Shown: positions 58,016 to 64,000 of the stretch, in pieces
Position numbering within the stretch: the first letter of the stretch is position 1
How the letters are laid out: each line of letters starts with the position of its first letter
From: Methylomonas subterranea
GTDB taxonomy: Bacteria > Pseudomonadota > Gammaproteobacteria > Methylococcales > Methylomonadaceae
NCBI RefSeq assembly: GCF_024505185.1
Contig: NZ_JANIBJ010000018.1
Location: 1-64,000, forward strand
DNA: 64,000 nt
Direction: 5' to 3'
Made by a program: the position numbers and the translations under genes
Notes under the pieces: generated by a model
What the model saw: only the letters and a program-made list of their open reading frames with translations
Told to the model about the DNA's origin: nothing
Databases searched by the model: none

Positions 58016-59059
58016 ATGAGCAGCAGTATCGAAATCAGCGAATCGGTTCGGCATTACTACGGGCAAGTTCTGCAATCCAGCCAGGACCTGAAAACCAGTG
58101 CCTGTTGCAGCATCGATGCCATGCCCGACTACTTAAAAGCGCTGTTGGCCGACTTGCATCCGGAGGTTCTGGAGCGTTTTTACGGTTGCGGCTCGCCGCT
58201 GCCGCCGGCCCTGACAGGCAAAACCGTGCTGGATCTGGGTTGCGGCAGCGGCCGCGATTGCTATTTGCTGTCGAAACTGGTCGGCCCGTCGGGCCGGGTG
58301 ATCGGGGTGGACATGACTCCCGAGCAATTGGAAGTCGCCGTCCGCCACCAGGCATGGCATGCCGAGCGCTTCGGTTACGCCAACGTGGAATTTCTGCACG
58401 GTCACATTGAAAACCTGCATACGGTCGGGATTGCCGACAACAGCGTGGACGTGGTGGTGTCCAATTGCGTGATCAATCTGTCGCCGGACAAACCCGGCGT
58501 ATTGGCGGAAATTTTCCGGGTTTTGAAACCTGGCGGCGAATTGTATTTTTCCGACGTATTCGCCGACCGCCGCATTGCGGCGGAACTGCGCCGGGACCCG
58601 GTACTGCTGGGGGAATGCCTGGGCGGCGCGCTGTATTGGGAAGATTTTCGCCGCATTTTGCAAGACCTGGGCTGCCCCGACGCACGGACGGTCAAGCAAA
58701 ACCCCATCAGCATCGACGATCCGGAGCTGTTTGCCAAGATCGGCATGGTCAAGTTCAATTCGGTAACGGTGCGGGCCTTCAAAATGGCCCTGGAAGACCG
58801 TTGCGAAGACTTCGGCCAGGTAGCCGTTTACCTGGGCGGCATGGACAGGCATCCGCACGGCTTCGACCTGGACGATCATCATCATTTCGAAACCGGCCGG
58901 CCGCTCAGAGTCTGCGGCAATACCGCCGATATGTTGGCCTTGAGCCGTTATGGCGCATATTTCCAGGTCCTGGGCGACAAATCCCGCCACTTCGGCCTGT
59001 TCGATTGCGCCCCGGGTCCGCAAGGCAGCGCTACATCCACGGACGGCGCCTGTTGTTGA
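58016..59059 (+). CDS. arsM: ArsM-type arsenite S-adenosylmethionine methyltransferase
   Basis: A 347-residue SAM methyltransferase that methylates As(III). Seen: the SAM motif VLDLGCGSGRDCYLLSKLVG (about residues 73-92), VDMTPEQLEVA, and the family Cys positions: CC in TSACCSIDAMP, VVSNCVINLSPDK and LLGECLGGALYWEDF. A Cys pair ends the protein (GACC). Length fits. There is no arsR, arsB or arsC in the window, so arsenic regulation is not shown by context. It is separated from the ThDP-enzyme operon by 323 bases. Confidence 0.9.
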   Translation: MSSSIEISESVRHYYGQVLQSSQDLKTSACCSIDAMPDYLKALLADLHPEVLERFYGCGSPLPPALTGKTVLDLGCGSGRDCYLLSKLVGPSGRVIGVDMTPEQLEVAVRHQAWHAERFGYANVEFLHGHIENLHTVGIADNSVDVVVSNCVINLSPDKPGVLAEIFRVLKPGGELYFSDVFADRRIAAELRRDPVLLGECLGGALYWEDFRRILQDLGCPDARTVKQNPISIDDPELFAKIGMVKFNSVTVRAFKMALEDRCEDFGQVAVYLGGMDRHPHGFDLDDHHHFETGRPLRVCGNTADMLALSRYGAYFQVLGDKSRHFGLFDCAPGPQGSATSTDGACC

Positions 59060-59172: not shown

Positions 59173-59382
59173 ATCCAGCGTGATTACCGAATTATTACAA
59201 AATCCCTACCATTTGCTTTTCAAGCGGCAATCTCTACTCTACACTTTCGGTTCCGGATTTAAACGGCATCGGACCCGCGCGGCCAATACCGAACCCGGAC
59301 GCTCCACCGCCCAGTGAGCGCCATTTCCCGACTCCGGTCGGCCAATAAGAACACCCTATCGTTAAGCATTAAAGGGGGGAAC

Positions 59383-61245
59383 ATGAATGCTCACATTTCT
59401 CTGATCCACAGCCAGACGGAATCGGCCGGGGAAAATCCGGCCCCCCCCATCGACGTAGCGGATTTATTGGTCGCCTACCTGGAACAACTGGAGATCGAAT
59501 ATGTGTTCGGTGTCCCCGGCGGTGCGATCGAACCGTTTTACAATGCCATCGCCCGCAGCACCCGCCGAGGCCGTATCCGGCACATTTTGGCCCGCCACGA
59601 AGCCGGGGCCGCCTTTATGGCCGACGGTTATGCCCGCGAAAGCGGCAAGATCGGCGTCTGCTGCGCCACTTCCGGGCCGGGCGCCACCAATCTGATCACC
59701 GGCGTGGCCTGTGCCTACGACAACAATATTCCGATGCTGGTCATCACCGGACAACCCGCCCTGCCGGCTTTCGGCAAAAACCCGCTGCAGGAATCCTCCT
59801 GCACCGGCATCAACACCTTGGGCATGTTTCGCCACTGTACCCGCTACAATTCCCTGGTATCCCATCCCAAGCAACTGGAAGCCAAACTGGTCGCGGCCTT
59901 GCAGCGGGCGGTGCGAGCCCCCAGGGGGCCTTCCCACCTCACCGTGCCGGTCGACGTATTCCGCGGCCCCAGCCCCAGGCCGGATCCATCCTACGATTTG
60001 CAAAACCTGTTGGCGCCCTCCTCCATGGTGGATAACGACGCCATCGAAACCTTGCGCGACATGCTGACCAAGGCCCAAAACGTGGTGCTGCTGATTGGCG
60101 GCCTGTGCGGTGAAGCCATAGGCTCCATCCTGCAGTTTGCCGCCCTGAAGGGCACGGCCATCGTCACCACTCCGGACGGCAAGGGCTTGGTCAACCCCCG
60201 CCACCCGCTGTTTCGCGGCGTATTCGGTTTCGGCGGCCATGAAACGGCCGAAACCATACTGCGGGATAGATCGACCGATCTGATACTGGCCATCGGCGCC
60301 AACATGGGCGAATGGAACAGCGGCGGCTGGAGCGAAAGCCTGCTGAACGAGCGCTTGGTGCATATCGACGAATACGAAGAGCATCTGGCCCGCACCCCCA
60401 TGGCCAAACTGCACGTGCGCGGACGCATCCAGTCCGTTTTCAGCCGGCTGGTGGAACTATTCCACAACCAACAAAAAGCCGACAACTTCGAATATGCCCG
60501 CCAGCGGGAATCCCGCGATCGCAATATCGCCCAGTGGGAACCGCACCGCATGCTGACGGAAGCGGCTAAATTCGACAGCGACGCGGTACCTATCAAGCCG
60601 CAACGGCTGATGAAGGAACTGGGCCTGATTTTCCCGCCCACCACCCGCTTCCTGGCCGATACCGGCAACAGCGTTTCCTGGTCCGTGCATTACCTGCATT
60701 CCAGCATAGACCGGCGCTTGGGCGAAAGGCGCCTGGGCGGCGGCGGACGCAAACCCTCGCCCGGCCAACGTAAAACCGATGGCGGCTGGTTCCGGGTGAC
60801 GATGAATTTCGCCGCCATGGGTTGGGCCATAGGCGGCGCGGTCGGCACGGCGGTGGCCAATCGCAAGCATCCGGTGGTCTGCATCACCGGCGACGGCAGC
60901 ATGTTGATGAACGGCCAGGAAATTTCGGTGGCGGTAGCCGAAAAAGTCAGCATCGTCTTTGTGGTGCTCAACGACCAATCCCTGGGCATGGTCAAACACG
61001 GCCAACGCATGGCGGGCGCGGAACAAATCGGCTGCGACCTGCCGCCCAACGACTTCGCCGCGCTGGCCCGCGCGCTGGGCGCCGCCGCATACAGCATACG
61101 CACGCCGGACGATCTGGCCAAACTCGACATCGCCGCCATCTGCGCCCGCCAAGGCCCCACGCTACTGGATGTTTACATCGATCCCGACGAAGAGCCTCCG
61201 ATGAATGTGAGGATGCGGGTTTTGGTCAACCAGGGCGACAGGTAA
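59383..61245 (+). CDS. acetolactate-synthase-like ThDP enzyme with internal insertion
   Basis: A 620-residue thiamine-diphosphate enzyme of the acetolactate synthase/pyruvate oxidase family, about 60 residues longer than usual. Seen: the N-terminal PYR domain with YVFGVPGGAIEPF, the activating Glu in ILARHEAGAAFMADGYARE and TSGPGATN, a central domain (about 220-350), and the PP domain with GDGSMLMNGQEI and the distal Asn in VVLNDQSLGM. A basic insertion, SSIDRRLGERRLGGGG with KPSPGQRKTDGG, lies just before NFAAMGWAIGG (about residues 445-475). No ilvN-like small subunit follows. The ATG at 59383 follows GGGGGG. It heads a tight operon with an SDR and two citrate-synthase-like genes, so it probably makes a specialised acyloin or decarboxylated ketoacid rather than acetolactate for valine synthesis. 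Confidence 0.88.
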   Translation: MNAHISLIHSQTESAGENPAPPIDVADLLVAYLEQLEIEYVFGVPGGAIEPFYNAIARSTRRGRIRHILARHEAGAAFMADGYARESGKIGVCCATSGPGATNLITGVACAYDNNIPMLVITGQPALPAFGKNPLQESSCTGINTLGMFRHCTRYNSLVSHPKQLEAKLVAALQRAVRAPRGPSHLTVPVDVFRGPSPRPDPSYDLQNLLAPSSMVDNDAIETLRDMLTKAQNVVLLIGGLCGEAIGSILQFAALKGTAIVTTPDGKGLVNPRHPLFRGVFGFGGHETAETILRDRSTDLILAIGANMGEWNSGGWSESLLNERLVHIDEYEEHLARTPMAKLHVRGRIQSVFSRLVELFHNQQKADNFEYARQRESRDRNIAQWEPHRMLTEAAKFDSDAVPIKPQRLMKELGLIFPPTTRFLADTGNSVSWSVHYLHSSIDRRLGERRLGGGGRKPSPGQRKTDGGWFRVTMNFAAMGWAIGGAVGTAVANRKHPVVCITGDGSMLMNGQEISVAVAEKVSIVFVVLNDQSLGMVKHGQRMAGAEQIGCDLPPNDFAALARALGAAAYSIRTPDDLAKLDIAAICARQGPTLLDVYIDPDEEPPMNVRMRVLVNQGDR

Positions 61246-61248
61246 GCC

Positions 61249-62007
61249 ATGAACAAACTCAACGGTAAAACCGCCCTGATTACCGGCGGCTCCAGCGGCA
61301 TAGGCCTGGCGACGGCCCGGCTGTTCAAGGCGGAGGGCGCCCGGCTGGCGATTACCGGCCGCGACCGGGAAAGGCTGGCCGCCGCCCGGGCTCAGCTGGG
61401 CGACGACACCCTGACCATCGTCAGCGAGGCCGGCTGCCTGAATGAAATCGAAGCCATGCTGGCCCAGGTCGACCAACATTTCGGCAAGCTGGACATCCTG
61501 TTTCTGAATGCCGGCATCGCCGAGCCGACTCCGCTGGAGCAGGCCACCGAAGCCCAATTCGACAGCATCATGCGCGTCAATTTCAAGGGCGTGTTCTTTA
61601 CCATCCAGAAAGCGCTGCCATTGCTCAAGCCCAAGGCCTCCATCATCGTCACCACCTCGATCACCAACCGCAGCGGCACGCCGAATTTCAGCGTTTATGC
61701 CGCCAGCAAGGCCGCCTTGCGTTCCCTGGTGCAGTCGCTGGCGTTGACCCTGATAGGCCGCGACATCCGGGTCAACGCCATCAACCCCGGCCCGATCGAT
61801 ACCGAGGGTTTCAACCGCCTGCCGCTGCCCAGCGAGGTGTTCCATGCCATCAAATCCGATATCGAGGATCGTTCGCCGATCAAACGTTTCGGCGCCCCGG
61901 ACGAAGTGGCCAAGGTTGCCCTGTTCCTGGCCTCGGAAGACTCGGCCTATGTGGTCGGCGAAGAAATCGTGGTTGACGGCGGCATGACTTTAGTCTGTTT
62001 ACCCTAG
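61249..62007 (+). CDS. short-chain dehydrogenase/reductase
   Basis: A 252-residue NAD(P)-dependent oxidoreductase. Seen: the nucleotide motif TGGSSGIGLATARLF, NAG in LFLNAGIAEPT, the catalytic Ser in IIVTTSITNRSG, and YxxxK in VYAASKAALRSLV. The family end EDSAYVVGEEIVVDGGM is present. It starts three bases after the ThDP gene, suggesting it reduces the product of that enzyme. Confidence 0.94.
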   Translation: MNKLNGKTALITGGSSGIGLATARLFKAEGARLAITGRDRERLAAARAQLGDDTLTIVSEAGCLNEIEAMLAQVDQHFGKLDILFLNAGIAEPTPLEQATEAQFDSIMRVNFKGVFFTIQKALPLLKPKASIIVTTSITNRSGTPNFSVYAASKAALRSLVQSLALTLIGRDIRVNAINPGPIDTEGFNRLPLPSEVFHAIKSDIEDRSPIKRFGAPDEVAKVALFLASEDSAYVVGEEIVVDGGMTLVCLP

Positions 62008-62015
62008 GAGAACGC

Positions 62016-62813
62016 ATGGCCGCTCAGCATAATCCGCATGCCGTCCGCAGTGCCATCTGGCGCGAGGAAGCCGAAGCCGACAACCCCTTCGCCGCCCGCG
62101 CCGCCTATTGCCGAGGTTACGATGTCTACGGCGAAATGCTGGGCCGGGCCAGTTGGGCGGACATGCTGTTCTTACTGTTTATGCCGGAAGCCCCCACGCC
62201 CGCCCAAGCCGGCTTATTGGAAAGCCTGGCGCTGGCGCTGGCCAACCCCGGCCCGCGCGACCCCGCCGTGCACGCGGCGATGAGCGGCGGCGTCTGCGGC
62301 TCCTCGGCGGCCTCGTCGCTGATGGCCGCCTTGGCGGTCGGTGCCGGACAACTGGCCGGCGCCCGCGAAGTGTTTAACGCCGTGTCGGGCTGGAGCCGCT
62401 GCGGAACCAATCTGCAGGCTTGGCGCGACTGGTTTGCCGGCCCCTTCGAACTGCCCGGCAGCGTCTGGCCGGAACCGGAACACGCGCCCGGTTTCGACCC
62501 TCGCGGCATCACTACCGCGACGCCGGTCAAACAAACGCTGACTTGTCTGGCCGCTTACGCCGCCGGCCCCTATTTACCCTGGCTGCAACAGCACCGATTG
62601 CAGATGGAGACGGCGGCCGGCCGGCCGCTGTCCTTGACCGGCGTGGCCGCCGCGGCACTGGCCGATCTGGGTTTCGGTCCCGAGCAAAGCGAGATGCTGT
62701 ATCTGTTGCTGCGGCTACCCGGTGCGGCGGCTCACGCCCTGGAACAGCGTGCCCTGGGTTATAAGAAATTTCCGTTCGGCGTGGTCGAACTGGAACACGG
62801 AAATGGAGAGTAA
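62016..62813 (+). CDS. citrate synthase/citryl-CoA-lyase-like protein A, catalytic residues apparently lost
   Basis: A 265-residue protein that aligns with the short citryl-CoA lyase branch of the citrate synthase family. Seen: CRGYDVYGEMLGRASWADML, PTPAQAGLLESLALALANPG and the late block LLLRLPGAAAHALEQRALGY. Where relatives have GDVHGGA, this one has VGAGQLAGAREV (His lost); the GFGHP-type His is not found; and NVDG is replaced by SLTG (Asp to Thr). It may therefore bind CoA or a polyketide-like acid without the standard chemistry. It lies eight bases after the SDR and five before the second copy. Confidence 0.78.
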   Translation: MAAQHNPHAVRSAIWREEAEADNPFAARAAYCRGYDVYGEMLGRASWADMLFLLFMPEAPTPAQAGLLESLALALANPGPRDPAVHAAMSGGVCGSSAASSLMAALAVGAGQLAGAREVFNAVSGWSRCGTNLQAWRDWFAGPFELPGSVWPEPEHAPGFDPRGITTATPVKQTLTCLAAYAAGPYLPWLQQHRLQMETAAGRPLSLTGVAAAALADLGFGPEQSEMLYLLLRLPGAAAHALEQRALGYKKFPFGVVELEHGNGE

Positions 62814-62818
62814 GACGC

Positions 62819-63649
62819 ATGCAAGAACCCGATTTGCCCGCCGCCCCTCTCGGCGTATTGAAAAGCCGCATGGGTACCTTTTACCCCGGCAGCCACGTCA
62901 TCTTTCGCGGTCAAGATTTGCATGAAGACTTGAAAGATTTGGACTGGCTAGCGCTTTATCTGTTCGGCATCACCGGCCGCCGCTTCGACGCCGCCCAATT
63001 AAAACTGCTGAATGCTATCTGGACTTATACCAGTTACGCCGATGCGCGGCTGTGGAACAACCGGGTCGCGGCTCTGGCCGGCAGCTCCCGCAGTTCCGGC
63101 GCGCTGGGTCTGGCCGCCGCCTTGGCCGTATCGGAAGCGGCCATTTACGGCGGCGGCATACTGATGCGCGCCATCGAATTTTTCATCCGCGCGCTGCATG
63201 AAACGGCCTGTGGAGCAGATCTAAGCGACTGCGTGCGGCGCGAGTTGGAGCTGCATCGCAGCATCGCCGGTTACGGCCGGCCCCTGGTCAACGGCGACGA
63301 GCGTATACAACCCTTGCTGAAGCTGGCCGCCGAGTTGGGTTTGGATCGGGGGCCGCATCTGGAATTGGCGCTGGCGGTGGAAATCAAGCTGTTGCACGGG
63401 CGTTGGCGCATGAAAATGAACTACGCGGCGCTGGTGGCGGCCCTGGGAGCCGATCTCGGGCTGGACGCGGCTGAATTTTACCTCTACATGTTCCCGGTTT
63501 TCCTGGCCGGCATGCCGCCCGGTTACATCGAAGCCGGCGAACGGCCGGAGGGCGGTTTATACGCCATACCCTGCGATCACATTGTATACAGCGGGCCGGC
63601 ACGGCGAAACTGGCCCACGGCAAACGCCGAACCCGGGGCTTCGACATAA
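62819..63649 (+). CDS. citrate synthase/citryl-CoA-lyase-like protein B, catalytic residues apparently lost
   Basis: A 276-residue second citrate-synthase-like protein. Seen: HVIFRGQDLHEDLKDLDWL at the N terminus, AIYGGGILMRAIEFF where relatives have AHGGANEAV (His to Tyr), GYGRPLVNGDERIQPLL where they have GFGHPLHKxxDPR (His to Arg), and KMNYAALVAALGADLGL where they have NVDG (Asp to Tyr). The family end FLAGMPPGYIEA is kept. A and B differ strongly and could form a heterodimer, as the two-subunit fold would suggest. Function unknown. Confidence 0.78.
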   Translation: MQEPDLPAAPLGVLKSRMGTFYPGSHVIFRGQDLHEDLKDLDWLALYLFGITGRRFDAAQLKLLNAIWTYTSYADARLWNNRVAALAGSSRSSGALGLAAALAVSEAAIYGGGILMRAIEFFIRALHETACGADLSDCVRRELELHRSIAGYGRPLVNGDERIQPLLKLAAELGLDRGPHLELALAVEIKLLHGRWRMKMNYAALVAALGADLGLDAAEFYLYMFPVFLAGMPPGYIEAGERPEGGLYAIPCDHIVYSGPARRNWPTANAEPGAST

Positions 63650-63722: not shown

Positions 63723-64000
63723 GTGAAATTACCCAAGCCCAAGCCAAGCCTTTCCAGCCGCCTGCCGTGGCTGCTTGGCGCCCTCAGTCTGGCCCCCGGC
63801 GCGTGGGCGCAACCGGTTTCGCTCGAGGACGAGGAAAGAGCGCTGTCGCAAATATACGGCGGCGAGGAAATGGTCAGCCTCGCCAGCGGTTACAAACAAC
63901 CGATCTCCAAGGCTCCGTCCATCGCCACCGTGATTACCGCCGAAGATATCAAGGCCATCGGCGCCACCGACATCGACGAAGTGCTGGAAACCGTGCCGGG
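63723..64000 (+). CDS. TonB-dependent receptor (N-terminal part, runs off the window)
   Basis: Only the first 92 codons are present. The GTG at 63723 starts VKLPKPKPSLSSRLPWLL, a signal peptide that ends GAWA before QPVSLEDEE. The plug domain begins with APSIATVITAEDIKAIGATD followed by EVLETVPG, the usual plug start. It lies 73 bases after the second citrate-synthase-like gene on the same strand, so it may take up or recycle a product of the operon. The substrate and the rest of the protein are not visible. Confidence 0.88.
   Translation, partial: MKLPKPKPSLSSRLPWLLGALSLAPGAWAQPVSLEDEERALSQIYGGEEMVSLASGYKQPISKAPSIATVITAEDIKAIGATDIDEVLETVP

Follow-up and report, generated by a model that had tools for sequence, protein, structure and literature searches.

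In the LuxP-LuxQ system, a binding protein and a membrane hybrid kinase sense the self-made autoinducer-2, and in the alpha-hydroxyketone systems CqsA-CqsS and LqsA-LqsS a carboligation-type synthase dependent on pyridoxal phosphate (PLP) is encoded next to a sensor kinase. In Vibrio cholerae, the periplasmic binding protein NspS and the membrane protein MbaA act on cyclic di-GMP (c-di-GMP), and Vibrionales make norspermidine, the ligand of this pair (PMC8967002, PMC5646818). Here, we describe a locus of Methylomonas subterranea that begins near the end of a 64,000-nucleotide stretch of DNA (contig NZ_JANIBJ010000018.1, positions 1 to 64,000, hereafter the window) and continues beyond it. The conserved unit is a core of three genes, encoding a thiamine diphosphate (ThDP) enzyme and two proteins predicted to have the citrate synthase fold (CS1 and CS2), with an optional short-chain dehydrogenase/reductase (SDR) gene and, usually, three sensor genes. 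We tentatively read this unit, with slightly less than even confidence, as a synthase of a diffusible ligand and a sensor for it that spans outer membrane and periplasm, the output in this organism being c-di-GMP. To our knowledge, its synthase half resembles no autoinducer synthase. The literature searched, which covered few subscription journals, yielded no autoinducer synthase like ThDP-CS1-CS2 and, among the matches listed, no described pathway for the gene combination, for which an earlier note on this DNA could likewise name none.

The sensing half resembles NspS-MbaA in joining a binding protein to a c-di-GMP membrane protein, and LuxP-LuxQ in joining a binding protein to a membrane kinase, both being likenesses of description. 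The locus differs from NspS-MbaA in having a putative ligand maker in the same cluster, a TonB receptor, and a binding protein of family PF04392, and the Methylomonas kinase also carries HisKA/HATPase domains and receivers. LuxP-LuxQ differs from the locus in synthase chemistry and in having no TonB receptor. CqsA and LqsA are PLP enzymes, whereas the candidate synthase here comprises a ThDP enzyme and the two citrate-synthase-fold proteins. By profile, these two have their fold in common with citryl-CoA (coenzyme A) lyase and citrate synthase (6hxp, GltA), but they are adjacent, divergent copies without the His-His-Asp set. The closest solved relatives of the ThDP enzyme, also by profile, are BbmA and CsmA (PDB 8x3x, 8xod and 8x3z), on whose reactions nothing relevant was found among the papers listed.

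The earlier note had described four genes spaced by 3, 8 and 5 bases, and both the coordinates and the gaps were confirmed; all four lie on the plus strand. The ThDP enzyme (59383..61245) has 620 amino acids from its ATG, with an alternative longer GTG start at 59314, and matches the N, M and C TPP_enzyme domains of Pfam. It is followed by the accessory SDR oxidoreductase (61249..62007, 252 amino acids), which matches adh_short and has the motifs TGGSSGIG, NAG and YAASK; the family assignments made earlier for these two proteins hold. CS1 (62016..62813, 265 amino acids) and CS2 (62819..63649, 276 amino acids) were recognised by profile match. The TonB-dependent receptor that the note had placed downstream starts 73 bases after CS2 on the same strand (63723..65900 on the contig, with the first 92 codons, 63723..64000, inside the window) and does belong with the core. 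Two further genes lie wholly outside the window, after gaps of 12 and 14 bases: a PF04392 periplasmic binding protein (65913-66887), with a hydrophobic stretch at its N-terminus, and a membrane kinase of 1445 amino acids (66902-71239). The kinase has the architecture sCache-HAMP-HisKA-HATPase-REC-REC-GGDEF-EAL, including the motifs SHELRTPLN, GGDEF and EAL. Its sCache_4 match scores 25 bits against a cut-off of 22, and the domain between its two hydrophobic stretches (17-42 and 179-204) is presumably periplasmic. The receptor, the PF04392 binding protein and the membrane sensor protein are referred to as the trio. Because a binding protein and a membrane sensor kinase follow the receptor beyond position 64000, the reading of the locus shifts towards sensing.

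The grouping of ThDP, CS1 and CS2 is no chance neighbourhood, as the three genes lie together in 44 mapped genomes as far as the contigs reach. These comprise 6 Methylomonas, 19 other Methylococcales, 10 betaproteobacterial records (Gallionellaceae, other Nitrosomonadales or Gallionellales bins, and Oxalobacteraceae), G102 from the same class as Methylomonas, 4 genomes of genus g108 and 4 of the G125 order. Contig ends cut off ThDP in L022, CS2 in L040 and CS2 partly in L037. The SDR gene, in contrast, stands between ThDP and CS1 in 11 of the 44 genomes (6 Methylomonas, 4 betaproteobacterial, 1 of family f4; the position is cut off from view in L022), so of the four genes first proposed as a unit the core stands together, but the SDR is dispensable.

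The trio adjoins the core in 33 of the 44 genomes. Among the other 11 loci, six are cut by contig ends (L024, L035, L037, L040, L092 and L093, with the receptor visible in L024 and L092), four have another kinase, and one, in G039, is disrupted. The trio of G008, the genome of locus L040, is on another contig (L125). In G039, CS2 is broken into two, with one piece beside CS1 (L032:8502-8708) and the rest about 0.5 Mb away (L104:10631-11383), and no trio was found in either stretch read; this is a naturally broken module. A transposase-like gene was noted by eye near the displaced CS2 piece. The ThDP frame is interrupted at two loci, by a frame change (L020:7370-9158) and by an in-frame stop (L095:7628-9418), which may reflect decay or assembly error.

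Co-occurrence was examined in a sample of 398 genomes of the phylum. The CS1 profile matched 35 of these, with 10 strong matches (E ≤4e-22) and 25 between 1e-12 and 1e-4, the next match below the strong group being at 1.4e-12. ThDP homologues at E 1e-105 or better occurred in 10 of the 398, exactly the 10 genomes with a strong CS1. We set the ThDP limit so as to separate the subfamily from ordinary acetolactate synthases, and no more than three candidates were scored per genome, so this co-occurrence is supportive and not a blind test. Elsewhere, a CS1 protein search found matches in 14 of 61 near genomes, one with a weak second match, and CS2 was found at 11 loci of the named collection, whose L016 was counted as one record with G034. 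In Methylococcales, the order of Methylomonas, the CS2 profile matched 73 of 301 genomes, 24 at >190 bits and 49 at 19-28 bits; the low-scoring matches are read as ordinary citrate synthases. The same profile matched 4 of 74 genomes in the G077 family and 4 of 48 in the G125 order. Plasmid-borne spread was considered and rejected, since a search of 72,556 plasmid records (E 0.001) gave no CS2 match.

Gene order around the core varies by lineage. Methylococcales, Oxalobacteraceae and G102 have the order ThDP-(SDR)-CS1-CS2-receptor-binding protein-sensor, and seven Gallionellaceae-type loci (L017, L018, L019, L020, L021, L023 and L025) carry the binding protein and sensor divergently upstream. 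Genus g108 (L072, L074, L078 and L079) has receptor-CS1-CS2-ThDP-binding protein-sensor. In the four loci of the G125 order, a Ser/Thr-kinase-AAA protein adjoins the core. In L073, only the Ser/Thr-kinase-AAA part of this protein is seen; in L075, L076 and L077 it also has GAF, HATPase_c and HisKA_3 matches and is followed by a response regulator, of the LuxR type in the one tested (L077). One Methylomonas locus (L028, genome G014) has the trio together with a Ser/Thr-kinase-AAA protein divergent from the core. The core is paired, then, with two unrelated sensor designs, one built from a TonB receptor, a PF04392 protein and a membrane sensor, and the other from the Ser/Thr-kinase-AAA protein. 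In Herbaspirillum (L026:3706-6244), the genes ahead of the core encode a MauG-type cytochrome c peroxidase and a DAHL-GGDEF protein, a further possible link to c-di-GMP.

The core enzymes are not ordinary members of their families. CS1 and CS2 have no Pfam match, and the NCBIfam citryl-CoA lyase assignments (PRK06224 models) are sub-threshold, the best scores being 59 bits (cut-off 261) and 45 bits (cut-off 245). Profile searches matched them to the citryl-CoA lyase 6hxp (E 1e-9 for CS1, 2e-10 for CS2), and hhalign gave probabilities of 99.6% and 99.4%, respectively, against a profile headed by the genome's own GltA and built from its two GltA and four citryl-CoA-lyase-like proteins. On these profile comparisons, CS1 and CS2 are assigned the citrate synthase fold. 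The catalytic residues of citrate synthase, which we take to be the His of AHGGAN, the His of GFGH and the Asp of NVD, have been lost: in CS1, the first His is present in 2 of 17 proteins, the second in 1 of 17 and the Asp in 0 of 17, and in 18 of 18 CS2 proteins the positions hold Tyr (Phe in one), Arg, and Ala, Ser or Gly. No CS1 or CS2 protein retains all three, while R154-P155 and R162 of CS2 are invariant in 18. Without this set, ordinary citryl-CoA chemistry is unlikely, and an ordinary citryl-CoA lyase was rejected on the curated cut-offs and the catalytic residues. The earlier description of two citryl-CoA-lyase-like proteins is right as to fold but not supported as to catalysis. That the two divergent copies are always found side by side suggests a single CS1-CS2 heteromer.

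The ThDP enzyme, by comparison, keeps its catalytic Glu73, GDG and Asn530 in 16 of 16 aligned homologues. Its best NCBIfam match, TIGR00118, scores 297 bits against a cut-off of 538, and it falls below the cut-off in all of the best 25 of 56 families; an ordinary acetohydroxyacid or acetolactate synthase (AHAS/ALS) was rejected on this basis. The acceptor-binding Arg of AHAS/ALS lies, we assume, in the RFDDR region. The equivalent region here is GANMGEWNSGGW, and all 16 homologues have Met or Leu at the position tentatively aligned with this Arg. The closest solved chains are BbmA 8x3x (392 bits) and CsmA 8x3z (332 bits).

Synthase and sensor have conflicting histories. Mean identity between Methylomonas and Betaproteobacteria is 74.6% for ThDP, 68.6% for CS1 and 66.3% for CS2, against 50.8%, 53.0% and 44.4% between Methylomonas and other Methylococcales, whereas for the receptor the corresponding values are 45.3% and 53.5%. 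Trees were built under LG+G4 with a short search, from 31 synthase rows and 47 sensor rows, leaving out loci lacking a gene, L030 and the G125 order. In the synthase tree, the Methylomonas and betaproteobacterial sequences form one clade with a support of 100 in the Shimodaira–Hasegawa-like approximate likelihood ratio test. In the sensor tree, the betaproteobacterial sensors cluster with second copies from other Methylomonas loci that have no synthase (L120, L123 and L124), with a support of 93. Approximately unbiased (AU) tests rejected a Methylococcales-only synthase group (p-AU 8e-8), a group of Methylomonas and betaproteobacterial sensors (p-AU 2e-7), and a group of the five synthase-bearing Methylomonas sensors (p-AU 0.012). 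The groups were named after the identities had been seen; the sensor tests were run without the three second copies, and the program warned of long branches. Since the two trees conflict, the cassette appears to have switched from one sensor partner to another. Most simply, it would have been transferred between lineages and linked anew to a different trio; the alternative is that an old duplicate was lost differentially.

The trio also occurs without the synthase. Among 37 Methylomonas genomes (G000-G036), scored at receptor identities of at least 80% and binding protein identities of at least 65%, the trio is present in 19: 6 with the synthase and 13 without it, and no genome has the synthase only. 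The receptor of G008 is partial, at a contig end. The association of synthase and trio has a one-sided Fisher value of 0.012, which is nominal since the genomes are related. Receptor, binding protein and kinase lie together in all 13 fetched synthase-less loci (the binding protein of L108 being found by profile). Eight of these (L108-L115) have unrelated genes upstream, namely a conserved formate/nitrite-family transporter, a cyanase and a fusion of PP2C phosphatase and Ser/Thr kinase, named from one locus, L110, and the remaining five have other upstream genes. The 13 trio-only Methylomonas are candidate listeners.

Neighbouring genes were clustered over 43 loci (L030 and L101 left out), using open reading frames of at least 80 amino acids from a simple caller and counting a cluster as recurring when it had three or more members in two or more lineages. 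Nine clusters recur, comprising the core, SDR, TonB receptor, binding protein, sensors and response regulator. Nonribosomal peptide synthetases (NRPS), NRPS-independent siderophore (NIS)-type assembly, exporters, and inner-membrane importers, transporters or permeases do not recur beside the core in two or more lineages. Since each stretch read spanned no more than about 21 kb, and often less, partners farther away would have escaped notice. Additional genes do appear in single lineages. In genus g9, an O-methyltransferase-like gene stands between receptor and binding protein (L033:1617-3600 by Pfam, L099:6639-7694 by eye), and in L033 a different, second SDR is found there as well; both may possibly tailor the product. 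One genome of the G125 order encodes a stand-alone amino-acid adenylation enzyme downstream of the core (L073:8057-9571), a hint at activation of product or substrate. At L083, and by eye at L081 and L086, citryl-CoA-lyase-like proteins that have the catalytic residues are found beside CoA-transferase family III and TctA/TctC transport genes, in what is likely a catabolic context distinct from the system of core and trio.

In M. subterranea itself, an arsenite methyltransferase-like protein is encoded upstream of the operon (58016-59059 of the window; 202 bits against a cut-off of 263). This arsM-like gene and an upstream gene of 421 amino acids were rejected as members of the unit, as they adjoin the core in 1 of 23 other loci (L040 of G008). 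Genes for a CopA-like multicopper oxidase and CopB lie downstream of the kinase (G000:C18:71190-73719). A 19 kb stretch of the contig had no Rfam match at the gathering threshold, and counts of promoter-like sites (4 observed, 4.5 expected) and terminator-like sites (19 observed, 15.4 expected, standard deviation 3.6) were uninformative.

In the mechanism that we tentatively favour, the ThDP enzyme and a CS1/CS2 heteromer, assisted here by the SDR, would make a small diffusible compound from a 2-oxo acid, probably of the acyloin or 2-hydroxy-3-oxo acid type. The compound would exit the cell, and the TonB receptor would return it across the outer membrane. In the periplasm, the PF04392 protein would bind it and, once loaded, would set the membrane kinase, whose output here, through two receivers and a GGDEF-EAL pair, would be c-di-GMP. 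What we infer from the genes is the identity of the core's product with the trio's ligand, the way in which the signal runs, and each of the chemical steps. Linkage of synthase to sensor, as expected of an autoinducer system, was found at 33 loci with the trio and 4 with the alternative kinase among the 44 genomes. The strongest points for a signalling role are this coupling to two kinds of sensor, the lack of recurring transporters, the pattern of producers and listeners, and the varying tailoring genes.

A number of observations weigh against such a role. A TonB receptor is unusual for a small signal, as a small acyloin usually crosses the outer membrane via porins, with no need of TonB, and the best family matches of the receptor, all sub-threshold, are to heme, B12 and siderophore receptors. 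In the four G125-order loci, the 10-16 kb read contained neither a recognised TonB receptor nor a binding protein, and no exporter is linked to the core at the loci clustered. Sensor outputs also vary. The one Gallionellaceae-type sensor tested (L017) is a HAMP-PAS-GGDEF-EAL protein without a kinase domain, and the one tested from g108 (L072) is a hybrid kinase of HAMP-PAS-HisKA-HATPase-receiver architecture that has neither GGDEF nor EAL; because these domains differ, a c-di-GMP output is not general. The binding protein barely separates the two histories, with identities of 35.9% between Methylomonas and Betaproteobacteria and 36.9% with other Methylococcales. Finally, the trio alone in 13 genomes must be useful without the cassette, which weighs against a strict one-to-one pairing, and since such genomes outnumber the synthase carriers, the trio may sense something that the cassette does not make.

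The main rivals are a catabolic operon and a metallophore. As a catabolic operon, the locus would import an external, hydroxy-acid-like substrate through the receptor, sense it through the binding protein and kinase, and degrade it with the ThDP enzyme, CS1/CS2 and SDR. A layout of uptake, sensor and enzymes suits inducible catabolism, the citryl-CoA-lyase fold family includes lyases, the L083 homologue with its catalytic residues sits beside CoA-transferase family III, TctA and TctC, and the trio is kept alone in 13 Methylomonas genomes. However, no inner-membrane transporter family recurs beside the core (at the loci themselves; one could be encoded elsewhere in the genome), CS1 and CS2 are without the catalytic set, and four genomes have the enzymes beside a Ser/Thr-kinase-AAA protein and without receptor or binding protein; we consider catabolism unlikely. 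A hydroxycarboxylate metallophore, for which the core would make a chelator, the receptor recover the chelated metal, and the other two trio proteins report metal status by a FecA-like logic, would account for the TonB requirement. It agrees with the heme, B12 and siderophore families among the receptor's best sub-threshold matches, with hosts such as Gallionellaceae and Methylomonas, which have a high metal demand, with the co-existence of genomes with and without the synthase, as for a public good, and with CopA and CopB on this contig. Yet CopA and CopB were found at none of the other loci fetched, most of which do not extend beyond the sensor gene, none of the NRPS, NIS synthetase, exporter and inner-membrane importer families recurs at the 43 loci, and c-di-GMP would be an unusual output for metallophore control; we regard this explanation as unlikely.

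The conflicting trees and the trio-only genomes would also fit two unrelated units that merely adjoin, namely an operon making an intracellular compound and a general nutrient-sensing trio. Against this stand the adjacency of core and trio in 33 genomes and three arrangements, across Methylococcales families, Gallionellaceae, Oxalobacteraceae, G102 and g108, and the count of zero Methylomonas genomes with the synthase but without the trio; we regard mere adjacency as very unlikely.

A broader proposal, somewhat less likely than not, is that the locus represents a new class of signalling system, in which a mobile synthase of ThDP and split citrate-synthase-fold proteins makes an undescribed carboligation signal that is gated by a TonB receptor, read by a PF04392 protein into c-di-GMP, and heard by many close listener-only relatives. 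CS1 and CS2 pose an enzymatic puzzle in their own right, namely the role of two always adjacent proteins of citrate synthase fold that are without its catalytic residues. If the signalling reading is true, enzymes normally of central metabolism would have been turned into a ligand synthase, and methanotrophs, Gallionellaceae and Oxalobacteraceae would share a chemical channel undescribed in the literature searched. As one genus holds genomes with both synthase and sensor (6 of 37) and genomes with the sensor only (13 of 37), who talks and who listens would be directly testable within Methylomonas.

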